From positions 89,204-153,203 of the forward strand of contig JAFQQE010000015.1 of the NCBI GenBank assembly GCA_017411405.1: DNA of 64,000 nucleotides, in the 5' to 3' direction. Source of the stretch: Bacilli bacterium (lineage in GTDB: Bacteria > Bacillota_I > Bacilli_A > RF39 > UBA660). This document shows positions 3,216 to 64,000 of this stretch, one piece after another (the stretch's first letter is position 1; the number at the start of each line of letters is the position of its first letter). The position numbers and the translations under genes were made by a program. The notes below the pieces were generated by a model that had not been told where the DNA came from, did no database searches, and saw only the letters and a program-made list of their open reading frames with translations.

Positions 3216-5294
3216 CTATAATTTTGATATACTTTTATGATTTTTCATTAATTTTCTAACACCAGTTTTAAAAGCAACATCTATTAAATCTCCATTCATA
3301 CTAACTACAACCCCTGTACCTAAAGTTTCATGACTAATAATATCTCCAACTTTAATTTCGTTATTTTCTGTCTTATTATATACCTTCTTAGTATCAATCT
3401 TTTCCTGTACTTTTATTCCAGAAATCTCTTCATCAATATAATTTTTATCAATTTCATCAATAAATCTACTAGGCATATTCATAGTATCTTTACCATATAA
3501 CATTCTTCTTTTTGCATTAGTTATATATAAACGTTCCCTCGCTCTAGTAATACCAACATAACAAAGTCTTCTTTCCTCTTCTACACCATTTTCCATCAAA
3601 CTCATAGTATGCGGAAATATACCTTCTTCCATACCAATCAAGAAAACAACATCAAACTCTAATCCTTTAGCACTGTGTATAGTCATTAAAGTAACTTCAT
3701 CATTATCTTCTTTATGATTCGCCATATCGCTAATTAAACTTATTTCTTCTAAAAAATCACCTAAATTAATTAATCCAGTTCTCTCTTCAAAAGATGCAGT
3801 AATACTTTTAAATTCCATTAAATTGTCTAATCTAACTTCATTTTCTAACGTTTTATCTTCATCTAATTCACGTTTTAAACCAGTTTTATCTAAAATTTCA
3901 TCAATTAAATCAGTTAAAGTCATCTCTTCACTCTTTTTAACTAAATCTAATATCATATTTTTAAATTCTAATTCTTTATTACTACTTAAAGCATCAAACA
4001 TACTAATACCTTCTAAAGTACTAACATTTTCTAATGTTTTTAAAGCAGCCTCTCCTATACCTCTTTTAGGTACATTAATAATTCTTCTTAAACTTATTTC
4101 ATCATTTGTATTATATATCAATCTTAAATAACTAATTAAATCTTTAATTTCTTTTCTATTATAAAAGTAATAACTACCAACTACTTTATAAGGAATACCT
4201 TTATTTAAGAATCCTTCTTCTACAACACGTGATTGAGCATTAGTTCTATATAAAATACCAATTTCTTCTTTTTTATATCCTTCATCTAAAAGCTTATTTA
4301 TCTCTTCGATAACAAGTGTTATTTCATGTTTCTCATCATAAGCTCTCATATATTTTACTTTTAAACCATCACCTTTTTCACTCCACAATTTAAGATCTTT
4401 TCTCTCTTTATTATTTTTAATTACAGAGTTAGCAGCATTAAGTATATTATTTGTACTTCTATAGTTTTCTTCTAACTTAATAACTTTACAATCTTGATAG
4501 TCTCTTTCAAAATTTAAAATATTTCTATAATCAGCTTGTCTAAAAGCATATATACTTTGATTCATATCTCCTACTACAAATAAATTATTATGTTTACTAG
4601 CTAACATACTAGTTAATATATATTGTACAGGATTAGTATCTTGATACTCATCTATTAAAATATACTTAAATTTATCTTGATAATGCTCTAATATTTCTTT
4701 ATGATCTCTAAATAGAATAACAGGCTTACTTAATAAATCATCAAAATCAATACTATTATTTTTAACCATCTTATCATTATATATATAATATATCTCTTTA
4801 GCAACCAAATCTATTTCAGTATTAAAAGTATTGTCTATTTCTCTATCAGATAACATTTGACTTTTAATCAAACTAATCTTATTTCTAATATAATAAGGAC
4901 TATAATGTTTAGGATCTAAATCTTTATCTTTTAATATTTTCTTTATTATTGTTAATACATCATCACTATCTATTATAGTAAAATTTTTATCCAATCCTAA
5001 ATACATATAATTTTCTCTAATTATTCGTAATCCAAATGAATGAAAAGTACCTATAAAAGCATTAGTTTCTCCAACTATATTATTTACTCTTTCTTTCATT
5101 TCTTTTGCTGCTTTATTAGTAAATGTTATAGCAAGTATATTATAATCTCTTATACCATTTTCAATCATATATGCAATACGAGTAGTTAAAACTTTAGTTT
5201 TACCACTACCAGCCCCTGCCATTACTAAACAAGGCCCATCTAAATGAGTAACCGCTTCTATTTGTTGTTTATTTAAATTATTTAAAAGTTCCAT
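3216..5294 (-). CDS. pcrA: ATP-dependent DNA helicase PcrA (UvrD/Rep family)
   Basis: This is a superfamily 1A 3'-5' helicase for repair and for clearing the path of replication forks. Walker A AGAGSGKT is at residues 26-33, motif II DEYQDT at 215-220, and motif VI (GITRARERLY) lies near residue 590. The C-terminal tail has the small Tudor-like fold typical of Gram-positive PcrA. Length 692 aa is slightly short of the usual 720-740 but no motif is missing. The pcrA-ligA pairing is common in Firmicutes; here a nucleotidyltransferase lies between them. An extended -10 box precedes the gene. Confidence 0.96.
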   Translation of the reverse strand: MELLNNLNKQQIEAVTHLDGPCLVMAGAGSGKTKVLTTRIAYMIENGIRDYNILAITFTNKAAKEMKERVNNIVGETNAFIGTFHSFGLRIIRENYMYLGLDKNFTIIDSDDVLTIIKKILKDKDLDPKHYSPYYIRNKISLIKSQMLSDREIDNTFNTEIDLVAKEIYYIYNDKMVKNNSIDFDDLLSKPVILFRDHKEILEHYQDKFKYILIDEYQDTNPVQYILTSMLASKHNNLFVVGDMNQSIYAFRQADYRNILNFERDYQDCKVIKLEENYRSTNNILNAANSVIKNNKERKDLKLWSEKGDGLKVKYMRAYDEKHEITLVIEEINKLLDEGYKKEEIGILYRTNAQSRVVEEGFLNKGIPYKVVGSYYFYNRKEIKDLISYLRLIYNTNDEISLRRIINVPKRGIGEAALKTLENVSTLEGISMFDALSSNKELEFKNMILDLVKKSEEMTLTDLIDEILDKTGLKRELDEDKTLENEVRLDNLMEFKSITASFEERTGLINLGDFLEEISLISDMANHKEDNDEVTLMTIHSAKGLEFDVVFLIGMEEGIFPHTMSLMENGVEEERRLCYVGITRARERLYITNAKRRMLYGKDTMNMPSRFIDEIDKNYIDEEISGIKVQEKIDTKKVYNKTENNEIKVGDIISHETLGTGVVVSMNGDLIDVAFKTGVRKLMKNHKSISKL

Positions 5295-46064: not shown

Positions 46065-47645
46065 CTATCTAATTTCTATTATATCATTACCAAATATATT
46101 TTCTGCTAAACTTTTTGATTTAACATCTTCTTCTATAATATTTTCTTCTTCATTGATATAAGTATATTTTTTTGTTTTATTTGAAATATATTCATTTTTC
46201 TCTTTTAACCACTCATCTTTTGATAAAGCTATAAATTTATAATTTAAATTATTTAATTCATTAAATTCTTGCTCTATTAAATATAAATTTTGATTAAATA
46301 TTAACATCTCACTTTCTGTTTTTAAAGAAAATATAACATTTGTCTCTGAAACAACTTCAATATCAGAATTTTCTATATATCCTAAAATATTATATTTATT
46401 TTCAACATTTAAATTTTGAATTAATTTATCCCATAATTCTATAAATTGTTTTTTACATTCTTTTGACGCTCCTACAAAAGAATTGTTAATTCTAATAAAC
46501 TTTATTTTATTATTATCAATTATAATTTCATCTGCTACTTTTTCTTCATTAATGTCGTTATTATTAATATTGTTGTTATCATTATTTAATTTCTTTTTTT
46601 CACCAATTATTTCCTGGGAAATATCTACAAAATTATTTCCCGGGAAATAATTTTCTGATATTAACAATGTCTTTATTAAAGTAAATGGGTTTACAATTGA
46701 ATTAAAAGTTAACACAAGATTGTTTAAATCATATATAATCTTCTTTATTACTTTCTCATCAGTATTAGTTGTCAACATTATGTCTAGTAAATAATCAATA
46801 AAATTATTTATAAAATTTAAAGGAGTTATACCACTATTATTTATTTCATTTATTAAACTATTTATAGATTTTTTATCATTATTTTTAATTAATGTAAATA
46901 ATTTGTCAAATTTCGTTTTTGTTAAAATACCAAAGTTTTTTTCAATTATCTCTACATTAATATCTTTACTAAATTTTGAAATTTGATCTAAATAACTTAA
47001 TGCATCACGCATACATCCATCTGATAATTTTATAATTTCATTTAAAGCATTGTTATCTATATTTATATTTTCTTCTTTACATATACTTAACAATGATTTT
47101 TCCATTACTTCATTATTTATTTTATAAAAATCAAAACGTTGACATCTTGACATAACTGTTTCTGGTATTTTATTCACCTCAGTAGTAGCTAGTATAAAAA
47201 TAACATGACTTGGCGGTTCTTCTAAAGTTTTTAAAAAAGCATTCCAAGCACTATTAGATAACATATGAACTTCATCTATAATATATATTTTATATTTAGA
47301 ATTATATGGTAAAATCTTTACACTATCTCTTAATAATCTTATTTCTTCAACTCCATTGTTACTAGCAGCATCAATTTCTATAATATCTGCTGATTCATTA
47401 TAGTTTACACATTGTTCACATTCATCACAAGATATACCATTACTATTACTTAAACAATTTAAAGTCTTAGCAAATATTTTTGCAGTACTAGTTTTACCAG
47501 TTCCTCTAGGCCCTGTAAATATGTAAGCATGAGCAATTTTATTTAATTTTATTGAATTAATTAAAATTTCTTTTACATTATCTTGACCAATTAATTGATT
47601 AAAGTTTTTAGGTCTATATTTTCTATAAAATACTTTATAATCCAT
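46065..47645 (-). CDS. dnaX: DNA polymerase III subunit gamma/tau
   Basis: The clamp-loader motor. Walker A GPRGTGKT is at residues 45-52, zinc-binding cysteines at 64, 73, 76 and 79, and IIDEVHMLSNSAWNAFLKTLEEPP is the Walker B region. 526 residues; the C-terminal tau part is short. Two Noc-type motifs (46609 and 46635) lie within the coding region at about residue 335-345. Confidence 0.96.
   Translation of the reverse strand: MDYKVFYRKYRPKNFNQLIGQDNVKEILINSIKLNKIAHAYIFTGPRGTGKTSTAKIFAKTLNCLSNSNGISCDECEQCVNYNESADIIEIDAASNNGVEEIRLLRDSVKILPYNSKYKIYIIDEVHMLSNSAWNAFLKTLEEPPSHVIFILATTEVNKIPETVMSRCQRFDFYKINNEVMEKSLLSICKEENINIDNNALNEIIKLSDGCMRDALSYLDQISKFSKDINVEIIEKNFGILTKTKFDKLFTLIKNNDKKSINSLINEINNSGITPLNFINNFIDYLLDIMLTTNTDEKVIKKIIYDLNNLVLTFNSIVNPFTLIKTLLISENYFPGNNFVDISQEIIGEKKKLNNDNNNINNNDINEEKVADEIIIDNNKIKFIRINNSFVGASKECKKQFIELWDKLIQNLNVENKYNILGYIENSDIEVVSETNVIFSLKTESEMLIFNQNLYLIEQEFNELNNLNYKFIALSKDEWLKEKNEYISNKTKKYTYINEEENIIEEDVKSKSLAENIFGNDIIEIR
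46609..46622. promoter_or_regulatory. Noc-binding-site-like motif, one change
   Basis: ATTTCCTGGGAAAT: one mismatch to the B. subtilis Noc box ATTTCCCGGGAAAT. It lies 26 bases from the perfect copy within dnaX. Confidence 0.6.
46635..46648. promoter_or_regulatory. Noc binding site (perfect)
   Basis: ATTTCCCGGGAAAT, identical to the known Noc box of B. subtilis, inside dnaX. The flanks extend the symmetry (AATT on the left, AATT on the right). Confidence 0.85.
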
Positions 47646-47687: not shown

Positions 47688-48104
47688 TTATATTTTCTTT
47701 CTGATTTTTTTAAAAATATCATCAAATAATTTTTTAAATAAAACATCACTAACATACATTTGTTCGTATTTGGTTTTACTATAAAAATTAGAATTATTTC
47801 CTTTAGAAAGTATATAGAAAACATTATTTATTCTTGACTCTTGTATAGCTAATTTACAAAGATCACATGGTTCTAAAGACACATACATAGAACAATCAGA
47901 TAAATTCCATCTTTTTAATTTTTTATAAGCTTTAATTAAACATAATATTTCAGCATGATATAATGCATTATTACTTATATTTTTTTTATTATAAGCTTTT
48001 GCAATAATTTTATTATTTTTTACTATTAAAGCACTAACTGGTATTTCACCTTTTTTATATGCTTTTAATGCTAATTTATAAAGAATATCTTCTATTTTTT
48101 TCAT
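47688..48104 (-). CDS. tadA: tRNA-specific adenosine deaminase TadA
   Basis: It makes inosine at position 34 of tRNA-Arg. Zinc-ligand motifs HAE (YHAEILC) and PCxxC (LEPCDLC) are present; about 138 residues. The start used is the ATG three bases after GGGTGAT; the longer frame would run into the ffs gene. Position ffs-tadA-dnaX follows the family arrangement. Confidence 0.92.
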   Translation of the reverse strand: MKKIEDILYKLALKAYKKGEIPVSALIVKNNKIIAKAYNKKNISNNALYHAEILCLIKAYKKLKRWNLSDCSMYVSLEPCDLCKLAIQESRINNVFYILSKGNNSNFYSKTKYEQMYVSDVLFKKLFDDIFKKIRKKI

Positions 48105-48120
48105 CTTATCACCCATAAAA

Positions 48121-48197
48121 AAAGTGCACATTAATATAATTTAATATGGCTGCTACGTTCCCGTCCTGACCAGTTTATAAACATATTAATTGCACAA
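48121..48197 (-). ncRNA. ffs: signal recognition particle RNA (small type)
   Basis: On the minus strand the conserved SRP core reads GGTCAGGACGGGAACGTAGC then AGCC. The 5' end (TGTGCAATTAATATG) pairs with the 3' end (CATATTAA...ATTAATGTGCAC). A T-run follows. About 77 bases, lacking the Alu domain of Bacillus scRNA. Confidence 0.9.
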
Positions 48198-48234
48198 ATA
48201 AATACTATCACTTTTTTTTGTAATAATCAAGTAA

Positions 48235-48250
48235 TGTTTCACGTGAAACA
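48235..48250. promoter_or_regulatory. parS site 1
   Basis: TGTTTCACGTGAAACA, identical to the 16-bp ParB/Spo0J recognition palindrome. Confidence 0.95.
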
Positions 48251-48303
48251 TTATTAACAATATTACATACATTTTTTTATATTTAAATAAATTTTCCACA
48301 CAA

Positions 48304-48319
48304 TGTTTCACGTGAAACA
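48304..48319. promoter_or_regulatory. parS site 2
   Basis: Same perfect 16-mer, with symmetry extended to CAATG and CATTG flanks; 69 bases after site 1. Confidence 0.95.
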
Positions 48320-48443
48320 TTGTTATATGTGCTATATTATTATATTCTTTCATTATTTTTTTTAAATAAATATTTATAAATATAATTATATTAACAAAAA
48401 TTACATTAAATTTGTTAGTTTATTTATGTTTTCCACATTTCAA

Positions 48444-48459
48444 TGTTTCACGTGAAACA
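48444..48459. promoter_or_regulatory. parS site 3
   Basis: Same perfect 16-mer; 140 bases after site 2. The symmetry extends to TTCAA and TTGAA. Confidence 0.95.
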
Positions 48460-48514
48460 TTGAAATTATTGTTTGTATATTTATAATTAATTAATTTTTA
48501 GTTTTCAACAACTA

Positions 48515-48530
48515 TGTTTCACGTGAAACA
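48515..48530. promoter_or_regulatory. parS site 4
   Basis: Same perfect 16-mer; 71 bases after site 3. Confidence 0.95.
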
Positions 48531-48569
48531 TATAATTATATTTATAAATTTAATTTTTTCTCAACTTAA

Positions 48570-48585
48570 TGTTTCACGTGAAACA
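48570..48585. promoter_or_regulatory. parS site 5
   Basis: Same perfect 16-mer; 55 bases after site 4 and 13 bases from the gyrA stop. The 48198-48597 gap holds no gene, only these sites; it could also carry the gyrA terminator function through site hairpins. Confidence 0.95.
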
Positions 48586-48597
48586 TTAAAAAAGAAA

Positions 48598-51192
48598 TTA
48601 CAAATTAGTAATTTCTTCTAAGTTATCATTTTCATTGTCGGAAGATTTGTCTACAATACTAATAGTCGAAACATACTGTTCATTTTTTAAATTAATTAAT
48701 TTTACACCTTGAGTAACTCTTCCTAATTGTCTAATTTGGTCTATTGATAAACGTATAATCATACCTGAATCAGTAATAATCATTAAATCACTATTTTCTT
48801 CAACTAACTTAAATGATGATAAAACACCATTTTTATCAGTAATAGATAATCCTTTAACTCCTTTACTTCCACGTTTAGTCATTCTAAATTCATTAACATA
48901 AGTTTTTTTACCATAACCTTTTTTAGTAACAGTTAATATATTATCTTCTAAAGAAACAACTTCTAAACCAACACAGTCAGCATCAACTAAATTAATACCT
49001 CTAACACCACTAGCAGTTCGACCCATAACTCGAATTTCTTCTTCATTAAACAAACACATTCTACCTTCAGAAGAAGCCATCATTATATAATCATTACCTG
49101 TGGATTTCTTTACACCAATTAATTCATCATTAGGTCTTAATGAAATACAAATTTTACCACTCGAACGTATGTTCGTAAACTCTTCAACCATTGTCTTTTT
49201 AATGAAACCTTTTTTTGTGCCAAACACTAAATATTTATATTCATTATCATTAGACATTTTTACTAATGAATTTATAGATTCATCTTTTTCAATTTGTAAT
49301 AAATTAATAATAGGTAACCCTTTAGCTTGTCTACTAAATTCAGGGATTTCATAACCTTTTATTCTATAAACTTTACCTTTATTACTAAAGAATAATAAAT
49401 AATCATGTGTTGATAAATTAATCATGTGTTCTACATAGTCCTCTTCATTAGTTGACATTCCCTTTATACCTACACCACCTCTGTTTTGAGCTTTATAAGT
49501 ATCAGATGTCATTCTCTTTACATAACCTTTATTTGTTAAAGTAACTATTATATTTTCTTCAGGAATTAATGACTCATCTTCTATATAATCAATTGCTGTC
49601 ATATCTATAGAAGTACGTCTTTCATCTCCAAAACGATTTTTTATTTCTAACAATTCTTCTTTAATTATATCTAAAACTTTTTGTTCACTTGCTAAAATAG
49701 ATTTTAATTCTTCAATTAATTTTAATAAATTTTCTAATTCTTCCTCAATTTTCGATCTTTCTAAACCTGTTAATCTACGTAATTTCAATTCTAATATGCT
49801 ATCAGCTTGAATTTGAGATAAACCAAATCTTTTCATCAATTGTTCTTTTGCTATTTGGTCTGTATCAGCAGATTTTATTATTTTAATAACTTCATCAATA
49901 TTATCTAAAGCAATCTTATAACCTTCTAATATATGAACTCTATTTTCACTTTTCTTTAATTCAAATTTTGTTCTTCTTATAATAACTTCTTTTTGATGAT
50001 CAATATATTTAGAAATAATATCCTTAATACCTAATGTTTTTGGAGTTAAACCATCTAACAATAAGAAAATTATACTAAAATTTGTTTGAAATTGAGTATG
50101 TTTATATAAATTGTTTAAAACTACTTGTGCATTAGCATCTTTCTTTAATGTAATAGTAATTTTTACTCCATCTTTTAAGTCTGTATGATAATCAGAAATT
50201 CCATCAATTATTTTATTATGTACTAATTCTGCAACTTTATTTTTTAATTCCATTGTATTTACACCATATGGAACTTCAGTAATTACTATACATTGATGTC
50301 CTTTTATTTCTTCTATTGTTGCTCTACTTCTTATTGTTACCGTACCTCTACCAGTTTCATATGCTTGTTTAATACCTGAATTTCCTAATATAATACCTCC
50401 AGTTGGAAAATCTGGTCCTTTAATATGTTGCATCAAACCTAAAGTATCAATATCAGGATTATCAATATAAGCAACACAACCATCAATTACTTCACCTAAA
50501 TTATGTGGAGGAATATTAGTTGCCATACCTACTGCAATACCCATAGTTCCATTAACTAAAATATTTGGGTATCTAGAAGGTAAAACTTTTGGTTCTTTTT
50601 GAGTTTCATCAAAGTTAGGATCAAAATCTACTGTATCTTTGTTAATATCTTTTAATAACTCTAAAGATAATTTAGATAGTCTAGATTCAGTATAACGCAT
50701 TGCAGCTGCGCCGTCTCCTTCGATATTACCAAAATTACCATGACCATCAACTAATAAATAACGTTGATTAAAATCTTGAGCCATTCTAACCATTGCTTCA
50801 TAAATAGATGAATCTCCATGTGGATGATAATGCCCCATAACATATCCAACAGTTGTAGCAGATTTTCTATGAGGTTTATCTGGAGTATATCCAGACTCAT
50901 ACATAGACCATAAAATTCTTCTATGAACAGGTTTTAATCCATCTCTTAAATCTGGTAAAGCACGAGATGCAATAACACTCATAGAATATTCTAAAAATGA
51001 TGTTTCTACTTCATTTACAATATTATTTTCAGCTAATCTATCTCTATCATGAAAATATCCATTAAATGATGGCTTTTCTTCTTCTATTTCATCATTAACA
51101 ATAACTTCTTCAGATTCTTTTTCAACTTCACTATTTTCTTCCTCATTTACTTCTTCATTTATAAGATCTAAAATTTCTTCATTTTCTTTCAT
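48598..51192 (-). CDS. gyrA: DNA gyrase subunit A
   Basis: The breakage-reunion subunit. Catalytic Tyr is at about 167 ([10 protein letters not shown]), the quinolone region reads [17 protein letters not shown] with Ser and Glu at the key positions, and the GyrA box is QNRGGVG at the start of the C-terminal wrapping domain. 864 residues. The first 45 residues are an unusual acidic extension ([20 protein letters not shown] and more) before the normal start. GGAGGTGA lies before ATG. Confidence 0.97.
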
Positions 51193-54312: not shown

Positions 54313-54765
54313 TTATTTAGACTTTCTTTTATTAATTATTGATTCTAATCTATGAGATTTTAAAATTTGATTATTTAATACACAATATGATACATCAAAT
54401 TCTATTTTTTCTTTATTATCAAATACTATAATACATCTTTTTTTATCAAAATCATAATAATAAGATTCAATATTATTTAAAGATACCCAACAACATTTTT
54501 TTAATCTAGGAGAAGATGTAGGAAAAAATATCATATTTCCTTCTTCTTCTATAAATATTGGAACTTTATAAGTAATACCTGTTAAATTAGTTGTACCTTT
54601 TTGTCTATTATTAATAGAACTTCCATAATATTTACAACTTTCATCCATTATATGATTAGGACTTTTATTTATAACAAAACTACAATCCTTTTCAACTATT
54701 TTAGACTTATTATCACCTACAGGTATAACAGCCAAAGTCTGATTAGATATTTCATAATCTTTCAT
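54313..54765 (-). CDS. comK: ComK-family competence transcription factor (short)
   Basis: 150 residues that follow the ComK pattern: YEISNQTLAVIPVGDNKSKI, VEKDCSFVINKSPNHIMDES, CKYYGSSINNRQKG, KVPIFIEE, IFFPTSSPRL and WVSLNNIE. B. subtilis ComK has 192 residues. The missing end includes the FMLYPK motif that MecA recognises for degradation, so regulation by MecA/ClpC is probably absent. Strong GGGAGGTGAGG site. Its position between dnaN and recF replaces the S4-domain gene yaaA. Whether it still activates DNA-uptake genes is unknown. Confidence 0.85.
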   Translation of the reverse strand: MKDYEISNQTLAVIPVGDNKSKIVEKDCSFVINKSPNHIMDESCKYYGSSINNRQKGTTNLTGITYKVPIFIEEEGNMIFFPTSSPRLKKCCWVSLNNIESYYYDFDKKRCIIVFDNKEKIEFDVSYCVLNNQILKSHRLESIINKRKSK

Positions 54766-56092: not shown

Positions 56093-57439
56093 TTAATTTA
56101 TTTTATTTTTAATTTCATTGATTTGATTTTTTAATTCTTCATTTGATTTTAAATCTTTTGTTACTTTTTCTATAGCATGTAATACAGTAGAATGATCTCT
56201 ATTTCCGAATTCTAATCCTATTCTTGTTGTAGTTTCTTCAGTAGTTGTTCTAGATAGATAAATTGCAATTTGTCTGGCATTATTAATATCCGAAGTCCTT
56301 TTTTTACTTTTTAAACTTTCTACAGTTAAATTAAAGTAATCAGCAACAGCTTTTTGAATTTTAGATATATTATTATTTGAATATACAGAAGAGCCTATAT
56401 AATCTTTTAAAGCTTCCATAGCAAATTCTAAATTAATCTCAGTAGGACTGTACATAGCAGCAAAAGCATAAAGTCTAGTAATAGAACCTTCTAAATATCT
56501 TACATCACTTTCGCAGTTATTTGCAATATATTCTATAACTTCATCTTTAACAAGTTTAGCTACTTCCAAACCTGACATTTTATCTTTTAATATTTTACAT
56601 CTTAAATCAAAATCTGGTGGAAATATATTTGCAGTAAGTCCCCATCTAAATCTAGTTCTTAGACGTTCTTCTAAAAGTTTTAAGTCATCTGGAGATCTAT
56701 CTGAACTAATTATTATTTGTTTGTTAGAATCATACAAAGTATTGAAAGTATGGAAAAATTCTTGTTGAGTTTTCTCTGCTCCCCCTAAAAATTGAATGTC
56801 ATCTATTATTAATACATCTATATTTCTATATTTTTCTTTAAAATGATCTATAACATCATAATTATCAGAATCTTTTCTATTAATTCCAATAAAATCTGTA
56901 ATAAATTTATCACTCGTTACATATAAAACTCTTTTATTAGTGTTTTCAACAATATAGTTTCCTATAGCGTGCATCAAGTGAGTTTTACCTAAACCACTTT
57001 TTCCGTGGATAAATAAAGGGTTATACACTTTTCCAGGTTGTTCAGCAACAGCAACAGCTGCAGTTTGTGCAAATCTATTGCTATCTCCTATTACAAATGA
57101 ATCAAATGTATATTGTGGATTTAAATTTGATTGAAAATAATCATTCTTATTTTTAGTTTCTTCTTTAATAACTTCTATATCATTATTAATTAAATCTTCT
57201 TCAATTACAAAATTAATATCATAGCTCTTACCAGTTAATCCAGTAATAACATTTTCTATCAACTCATAATAATTATCATTTAAGAAATTTTTATGAAAAC
57301 TCATAGGTACTTCTATACTAATAGTATCATCAGTAATTTTAGCAAGTTTAGTATCTTTAAACCATGTATCATAAGACACACCAGAAAGCTTAGTTTTTAT
57401 AATTTTTAAGAAACTCTCCCAAGAAAAATTATTTTCCAT
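56093..57439 (-). CDS. dnaA: chromosomal replication initiator DnaA
   Basis: 448 residues in four domains: the N-terminal protein-interaction domain, a linker, the AAA+ domain with GKSGLGKT (146-153) and VLIIDDIQFL, and the C-terminal DNA-binding domain with the signature around TRIGLEFGNRDHSTVLHA. Strong GGGGTGG site upstream. Confidence 0.98.
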   Translation of the reverse strand: MENNFSWESFLKIIKTKLSGVSYDTWFKDTKLAKITDDTISIEVPMSFHKNFLNDNYYELIENVITGLTGKSYDINFVIEEDLINNDIEVIKEETKNKNDYFQSNLNPQYTFDSFVIGDSNRFAQTAAVAVAEQPGKVYNPLFIHGKSGLGKTHLMHAIGNYIVENTNKRVLYVTSDKFITDFIGINRKDSDNYDVIDHFKEKYRNIDVLIIDDIQFLGGAEKTQQEFFHTFNTLYDSNKQIIISSDRSPDDLKLLEERLRTRFRWGLTANIFPPDFDLRCKILKDKMSGLEVAKLVKDEVIEYIANNCESDVRYLEGSITRLYAFAAMYSPTEINLEFAMEALKDYIGSSVYSNNNISKIQKAVADYFNLTVESLKSKKRTSDINNARQIAIYLSRTTTEETTTRIGLEFGNRDHSTVLHAIEKVTKDLKSNEELKNQINEIKNKIN

Positions 57440-57696
57440 AAAACCACCCCGCTTCCAAGATAACTTTTCTACAAATATTTTAAAACAAATTTGTTGAAAA
57501 ATAAAGTATCAAATAACAAATTTTTAATTTTCAACATCATTTCCACAAACTTATGAACATCTAACCCTAATTAAAATAAGACAATAATATAGTTATCAAC
57601 AATTTCCACAATTTAATATCCACATAAAAAAAAGATATACACATTTTAACGTTGAAAACTTTTTAATACTTAAAAAACATTTTTTTAAAATTTTAA
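57440..57696. other. oriC region
   Basis: This AT-rich interval between the divergent dnaA and rpmH genes contains DnaA-box-like 9-mers: TTATCAACA (57593-57601), ATTTCCACA (57539-57547 and 57602-57610), ATATCCACA (57616-57624), TTTTCAACA (57528-57536) and its reverse (57492-57500). Gene strand switches here. The sites at 54833 and 56012 may form further parts of a split origin. The unwinding element is not defined. Confidence 0.85.
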
Positions 57697-57725
57697 TTGA
57701 CTTAATAAAAAAAATATAATACAAT
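57697..57725 (+). promoter_or_regulatory. rpmH promoter
   Basis: TTGACT (57697-57702), 17 bases, TACAAT (57720-57725). Confidence 0.75.
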
Positions 57726-57757
57726 AAGATGGCTTAAGAAGAGGTGGAGGTGCAATT

Positions 57758-57880
57758 ATGAAAAGAACTTATCAACCAAATAATCGTAAAAAAAGTAAAA
57801 AACATGGTTTTTTTGCACGTAAAGAAACGAATATTTTAAAATCAAGAAGAAAAAAGGGACGTAAACAATTATGTAAGTAA
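57758..57880 (+). CDS. rpmH: 50S ribosomal protein L34
   Basis: A 40-residue basic protein: [12 protein letters not shown] at the start, HGFFARK in the middle and [11 protein letters not shown] at the end, the L34 pattern. It is four residues shorter than usual. GGTGGAGGTG precedes ATG. Confidence 0.97.
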
Positions 57881-57881
57881 G

Positions 57882-57901
57882 CCACAATTATGTGGTTTTT
57901 T
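57882..57901 (+). terminator. partial terminator after rpmH
   Basis: CCACA, ATTA, TGTGG followed by six T. rnpA starts 20 bases later without a new promoter in view, so it probably acts as an attenuator that lowers rnpA relative to rpmH. Confidence 0.75.
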
Positions 57902-57920
57902 ATCTATTAGGAGAAAAAAT

Positions 57921-58247
57921 ATGAAAAAGAAAGATGTTATAAAACCTAAAGAAGAATTTAATGATTTGATAAAAAATGGTAAATTTATTAAAAATAATGA
58001 ATTTGTTATATATTATAAGGAAAATAATTTAAATAAAAAACGTTTTGGGATTGCTATAAGTACAAAATTAGGCAAAGCAGTTGTAAGAAATAAATTAAAA
58101 AGACAAACGCGTGAAATTATAGATAAATTAAATTATTTCTTTAAAAATAACATGGATTATATTATAATGATAAGGAAAGGAAGTTTAGAAACTACTTTTC
58201 ACGATCGAATTAAAAATCTAGAAAATATTTTAAAGGAGAAATTATGA
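57921..58247 (+). CDS. rnpA: ribonuclease P protein component
   Basis: The protein subunit of RNase P, 108 residues. The RNR-type signature reads NKLKRQTREI after AVVR, and the N-terminus has the usual F-x-x-(V/I)-x-K-type start. It overlaps yidC by four bases. Confidence 0.94.
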   Translation: MKKKDVIKPKEEFNDLIKNGKFIKNNEFVIYYKENNLNKKRFGIAISTKLGKAVVRNKLKRQTREIIDKLNYFFKNNMDYIIMIRKGSLETTFHDRIKNLENILKEKL

Positions 58248-59828: not shown

Positions 59829-59842
59829 ATTTCCCGGGAAAT
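59829..59842. promoter_or_regulatory. Noc binding site (perfect)
   Basis: ATTTCCCGGGAAAT between khpB and mnmE; a half-site (ATTTCCC) follows at 59874-59880. Confidence 0.85.
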
Positions 59843-63942: not shown

Positions 63943-64000
63943 ATGAATTTAGAACCAAATGTACAATATATAAATGTAGAAGAAATTATACCAAATAGAT
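63943..64000 (+). CDS. noc: ParB-family protein, start only (probably Noc)
   Basis: The window ends after 19 codons (MNLEPNVQYINVEEIIPNR). The stretch I-x-V-x-x-I-(I/V)-P-N-R is the beginning of the ParB/Noc N-terminal domain and resembles Noc (IVPNRFQPR) more than Spo0J. In B. subtilis noc follows rsmG. AGTAGGGG precedes the ATG. Noc sites are present in the window, supporting the assignment. The 3' part is outside. Confidence 0.75.
   Translation, partial: MNLEPNVQYINVEEIIPNR

Follow-up and report, generated by a model that had tools for sequence, protein, structure and literature searches.

Does the short gap between gyrA and ffs, in which one 16-bp palindrome, TGTTTCACGTGAAACA, is repeated five times without a change of letter, hold a centromere of the chromosome, and if so, which proteins might gather there? 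The locus lies in a 64-kb stretch of contig C25 of the draft genome of a small gut bacterium of the Bacilli (the window, i.e., the whole stretch of DNA analyzed), and the array and its surroundings are as follows.

47688..48131, reverse strand: tadA-like deaminase gene, which in relatives closes the array gap at its far end
48118-48198, reverse strand: ffs, small SRP RNA (Rfam RF00169)
48235..48250, no strand: parS1, exact match in a 22-bp palindrome, just upstream of the ffs promoter region
48304..48319, no strand: parS2, exact match in a 24-bp palindrome
48444..48459, no strand: parS3, exact match in a 30-bp palindrome
48515..48530, no strand: parS4, exact match in a 20-bp palindrome
48570..48585, no strand: parS5, exact match in a 24-bp palindrome, directly behind the gyrA terminator
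48590-48619, reverse strand: hairpin followed by a T-run, intrinsic-terminator-like, overlapping the gyrA stop codon (RNA fold)
48598-51192, reverse strand: gyrA (NCBIfam)
56093-57439: dnaA, with a GC-skew sign switch at 56-58 kb
57440..58243, no strand: probable oriC side of dnaA (the dnaA-yidC gap), from the GC-skew switch and gene order

The initial annotation had described five identical 16-bp parS sites in 350 bp between ffs and gyrA, all with further symmetric flanks and about 9 kb from oriC. The sites were confirmed by exact matching and their neighbors by Rfam and NCBIfam, and the distance fits both the position of dnaA and the GC-skew switch. The flanking symmetry is perfect over the lengths given above, with a probability of ~1.6e-4 beyond the ever-present outer A/T; this outer A..T pair alone is common to all five sites, the other flank letters varying from site to site. 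At one parS per 70 bp, the array occupies a 350-bp gap, and no further copy of TGTTTCACGTGAAACA was found in the window with up to three mismatches. Shuffling of the window gave 0.20 expected parS matches and never five, and at the base composition of the host an exact TGTTTCACGTGAAACA is expected by chance in ~1e-4 copies per 1.04 Mb. A scan with the 16-mer of the whole draft genome, which comprises 1.04 Mb in 29 contigs, is 78% complete and could be missing distant parS, returned no site beyond the five with two or fewer mismatches, the next best match having three, so the special status of the cluster was not refuted. A tandem-repeat origin is no longer visible in the window's own array, where no tandem period was detected.

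Symmetric arms are found around parS across the family as well. In a de-duplicated set of 282 family sites, self-complementarity of the flanks extends about six bases past the 16-mer, with z falling from 7 to 3, and the flank letters themselves are not conserved, except for A..T and, in part, C..G. Other 10-bp palindromes in the same gaps carry no such arms, and the idea that arms are a general property of gap palindromes was rejected. The arms may reflect selection for hairpin or cruciform formation at parS, or quasi-palindromes may have been made perfect through correction by template switching, two rationales that are indistinguishable here.

Comparison of the ffs-gyrA gap among relatives, using 80 loci fetched by a GyrA profile from genomes named as uncultured, mostly gut-derived Bacilli MAGs, revealed that parS is present at this place family-wide. 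In 76/80 loci, parS lies behind gyrA, with 1-15 sites and a median of 4, these counts being lower bounds, as a contig end falls within 250 bp of the last parS in 12/80 loci. Short-read contigs stop inside the array in many relatives (L158-L167, L080, L125, and others), so that array sizes in drafts are underestimated. The sites are inside the gyrA-tadA gap in 61/64 loci bounded by tadA, some arrays running on into the tadA-dnaX gap, and ffs adjoins tadA in 10/10 loci tested (Rfam). On the genome scale, the core GTTYCACGTGRAAC occurs in 88/98 family genomes, 1-20 times per genome, while the reversed pattern occurs in none; where places were checked, the sites belong to the gyrA-tadA-dnaX stretch, and a family genome whose sites are split over two or three contigs has in most cases an assembly broken inside the array. 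In several sister families, a pair of parS separated by 230-420 bp is located 1-3 kb behind gyrA, and the place therefore looks older than the array. In some relatives (L189 of G001, L051, and L122), the first parS is inside the coding sequence of gyrA, at its 3' end. The de-duplicated spacings gave a weak 10.0-bp signal (Rayleigh z of ~5 after scanning 61 periods), on which we make no claim of helical phasing.

Two further observations concern other parts of the window. A gene for the competence regulator ComK (54313-54765, reverse strand; Pfam E = 8e-41) lies between dnaN and recF in this small-genome bacterium, and relatives such as L183 and L185 have a ComK gene at the same place. At 3509-3608 (reverse strand), there is a match barely above the Rfam threshold to n00280, an sRNA located within a helicase gene of C. 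difficile; the match is probably due to conservation of the coding sequence in a 692-amino-acid open reading frame at 3216-5294.

A centromere of this kind would need a parB gene, and soj and parB are present on another contig (C27), behind an ftsH-like gene. The ParB protein (L013 1381-2277) has B. subtilis Spo0J as its best match (3e-62) and carries the CTP-binding GERR motif and, by alignment to Spo0J, the parS-type R in the recognition helix. SMC and ScpA are also encoded in the genome. The parS near oriC, the ParA and ParB genes, the recognition residues and these SMC-complex proteins fit a chromosomal ParABS centromere of the Spo0J type.

The same origin region contains Noc-binding sites (NBS) and the beginning of the gene for Noc itself.

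46609..46622, no strand: NBS with one mismatch, inside dnaX
46635..46648, no strand: NBS ATTTCCCGGGAAAT, perfect, inside dnaX
59829..59842, no strand: perfect NBS across oriC, in the jag-mnmE gap
63943..64000, forward strand: start of noc, after rsmG, continuing to the right of the window (L011); PDB match to Noc

These two perfect and one near-perfect NBS are all within ~13 kb of oriC, and no others were found in the window genome within two mismatches; none is inside the window parS array, the nearest being 1.6 kb away. All genomes of the genus (5/5) have NBS at two loci only, dnaX and the jag-mnmE gap, which flank the array and oriC. In each of the other four, a single dnaX NBS lies ~1.6-1.8 kb away from the array, and across oriC the jag-mnmE gap holds a second NBS that is either perfect or deviates at one position. 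A further 13 loci also have an NBS within dnaX, and the site is read there in two different frames (ISREI and YFPGN); its explanation as a protein motif was therefore rejected, and it is the DNA on which selection acts. Chromosome-wide spread of NBS outside the terminus was not observed in the family, which has 0-20 NBS per genome, with perfect sites in 85/98 genomes (1-20 per genome; 0 for the reversed control). In 40/80 loci, NBS occur within the gyrA-dnaX stretch. In L112, strict alternation at a period of 126 bp covers ten parS and eleven NBS; alternation of this type is seen in L114, L119 (84 bp), and L108 (64 bp, with gaps), and a similar one in G026 (79 bp, at least 16 parS and 15 NBS). 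Over all loci, alternation is moderate (123 switches versus 108 +/- 6 shuffled) and is strict for the named arrays only. An NBS is found within 34 bp of a parS core in 13/54 family genomes versus 1/341 other genomes of the class (p = 2e-11). Locus L120 has a seven-copy NBS array ~720-1300 bp after gyrA and no parS core in the fetched stretch, and in L125, 13 parS spaced at 43 bp come after four NBS spaced at 75 bp.

The specificity for NBS has been assigned to Q173 and R201 together with one permissive lysine, at 179 or 184 (PMC7383237). The window Noc, with Q, K, N, and R at the recognition positions against Q-K-K-R in known Noc, has residues of the NBS type, and of 30 family Noc proteins, the 24 in which every position of the motif is readable have Q-K-x-R, and all 30 have the R. 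The amphipathic helix on which membrane binding and occlusion depend lies within the first 26 residues of Noc (PMC8429893; PMC4331003). Counted from its own ATG, the window Noc begins where the Geobacillus Noc N-delta-26 construct begins and, judging from its sequence, lacks the N-terminal amphipathic membrane helix; in ~25/30 family Noc, the open frame is too short to accommodate it. The family proteins (L014 and L127-L155) instead have, ahead of the C-terminal domain and after the DNA-binding one, a disordered linker of 80-458 residues rich in Asn, Glu, Pro, and Ser. A literature search found nothing relevant on interspersed Noc and ParB sites, and the pairing of parS with Noc sites and an origin-confined, helix-less Noc appear undescribed in the literature searched, which is weak evidence of novelty, as many subscription papers were out of reach.

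It might be asked whether the repeats are mainly gyrA transcription terminators or RNA hairpins, the parS match being secondary, and we regard this as very improbable. All sites are perfect inverted repeats, and a second hairpin, that of parS5, comes directly after the gyrA terminator, the two hairpins together giving an RNA fold z of -4.3; in relatives, the first parS past gyrA has longer arms and a T-run and is terminator-like more often than later parS (Fisher p = 0.006). However, a hairpin followed by a T-run is not seen at each repeat, since in relatives the bias is confined to the first site and is absent from later ones, and up to 15 copies would be pointless as terminators. Furthermore, the core is invariant and the arms vary, whereas terminators need no fixed loop sequence, and the alternation of NBS with parS would be left unexplained. 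The proposal of the initial annotation that the array shapes gyrA transcription ends is plausible for relatives; in the window, gyrA has its own terminator ahead of parS5, making any such role secondary. With this terminator on one side and, from inspection of the sequence, a likely ffs promoter just downstream of parS1 on the other, the array is set between a terminator and the next promoter.

DnaA-box-like sequences stand next to three of the five window parS, each pointing at its site, and they bear on the alternative of replication control.

48292..48300, forward strand: DnaA-box-like TTTTCCACA, 3 bp from parS2
48429..48437, forward strand: DnaA-box-like TTTTCCACA, 6 bp from parS3
48502..48510, forward strand: DnaA-box-like TTTTCAACA, 4 bp from parS4

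Judged by the E. coli and B. subtilis consensus, these would be working DnaA boxes. With parS and NBS removed, TTWTCCACA was found 27 times in 65 gaps versus 0.8 in dinucleotide shuffles, and boxes face the neighboring parS at 1-8 bp in ~10 loci, on which the adjacency rests, the reverse orientation being little enriched. G003, from the same genus as the window, has TTTTCAACA beside both its parS sites, and TTATCAACA also occurs on both sides of the window dnaA. An array serving mainly replication control, as a DnaA-titration or ParA-DnaA contact site to which ParB is accessory, would account for these boxes; nevertheless, the strict box is present in 15/65 gaps only and most arrays have none, and ParA control of initiation in B. 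subtilis is reported to be independent of parS location (PMC7614844), which leaves this function improbable as the main one. Passive growth of the array, in which only one parS is needed and its GC-poor spacer is duplicated in tandem, the extra copies persisting because they do no harm, we judge unlikely. In its favor, spacers resemble one another inside a genome and differ from genome to genome, 19% of pairs within loci and 0% between loci being more than 80% identical, and regular iterons occur in 11/80 loci (units of 36, 37, 43, 44, 55, 63, 64, 84, 107, or 126 bp), some arrays consisting of perfect tandem iterons. In addition, one parS of a four-site cluster suffices in P. aeruginosa (PMC4368675), so extra copies need not matter for segregation. 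Against passive growth, most arrays, including that of the window, combine diverged spacers with perfect parS cores, so that each copy appears to be under selection, and at least three parS, i.e., a copy number above 2, are present in 63/80 loci. Repeated tandem duplication in which selection preserves the core would account for the likeness of spacers within genomes. The near-fixation of the 18-mer ATGTTYCACGTGRAACAT, with spacers diverging between species, counts in favor of a centromere.

The sites, their uniqueness and conservation, the partner genes and the ParB and Noc specificity codes argue for the array as a single, compact centromere that loads ParB, in an origin domain to which Noc and perhaps DnaA are also drawn, a reading to which we give a probability of about 0.8. 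The initial interpretation is supported in part: one strong centromere and ParB loading zone is still the best reading of the locus, one that we infer and that the tests able to refute it failed to overturn, but the family-wide array, the Noc sites in the same zone and the DnaA boxes abutting parS had been missed. The centromere could operate as follows: (i) ParB dimers would bind and load as CTP clamps at the five parS between the gyrA terminator and the ffs promoter, and the loaded ParB would slide onto neighboring DNA, giving one ParB zone; (ii) ParA would move this zone, and SMC-ScpA could be loaded from it, and since every site found is at the same spot, SMC would have a single place of entry; (iii) Noc would bind its own sites flanking the zone (in dnaX and jag-mnmE) or, in many relatives, inside the same array, whereby ParB and Noc complexes would share the origin domain and may function jointly; (iv) the DnaA boxes touching some parS may link the ParB zone to initiation control.

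ParB and Noc are presumed to be products of a duplication. A more tentative possibility, which we would not put at even odds, is that of a composite origin centromere, where these paralogous CTP-clamp proteins load from interleaved or neighboring sites; Noc, with neither membrane anchor nor chromosome-wide sites, would act as a second origin-confined segregation or initiation factor and not in nucleoid occlusion, and the DnaA boxes would tie the array to replication. This bears on how Noc passed from a centromere role to chromosome-wide occlusion, as both site sets together at the origin and a helix-less Noc would represent a halfway stage of this change or a return from it. In addition, the arrays vary naturally, at one fixed locus, in how many parS they hold (1-20), how these are spaced, and how regular they are, which can be useful for learning what parS multiplicity does to ParB clamp density and SMC entry.

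Set against known systems, the dense array by itself belongs, as a variant, to an already described kind of parS cluster, and the Noc pairing is the newer part. The regular tandem repeats of binding sites in relatives (units of 36-126 bp) resemble plasmid centromere iterons; unlike these, the arrays described here are chromosomal and consist of canonical chromosomal parS served by a Spo0J-type ParB. In Pseudomonas aeruginosa, parS are not packed into one short intergenic gap, unlike in the window array. The likeness to that species lies in several parS near oriC (PMC4368675). In most bacteria, parS are clustered within 5-40 kb, and the closest precedent in density is Myxococcus xanthus, with 22 parS in 3 kb forming a dense, many-site cluster at a single locus near oriC (PMC8357415; PMC3899335). 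The M. xanthus cluster has approximately one site per 140 bp and is located 4 kb from parA, whereas here the array is twice as dense and stands beside gyrA, parAB is on another contig, and the family shows linkage to Noc sites and DnaA boxes. The contrast drawn at the outset with B. subtilis was right, as its eight parS scattered over ~0.75 Mb are the exception (PMC8357415). Noc sites are likewise widespread in known systems, with ~70 around most of the B. subtilis chromosome (PMC4331003) and 41 loci in S. aureus (PMC5540599). The bacterium studied here shares with B. subtilis the parS and NBS sequences and the ParB and Noc specificity residues, and it differs from it in having one parS array, NBS near oriC only, and a Noc without the amphipathic helix.
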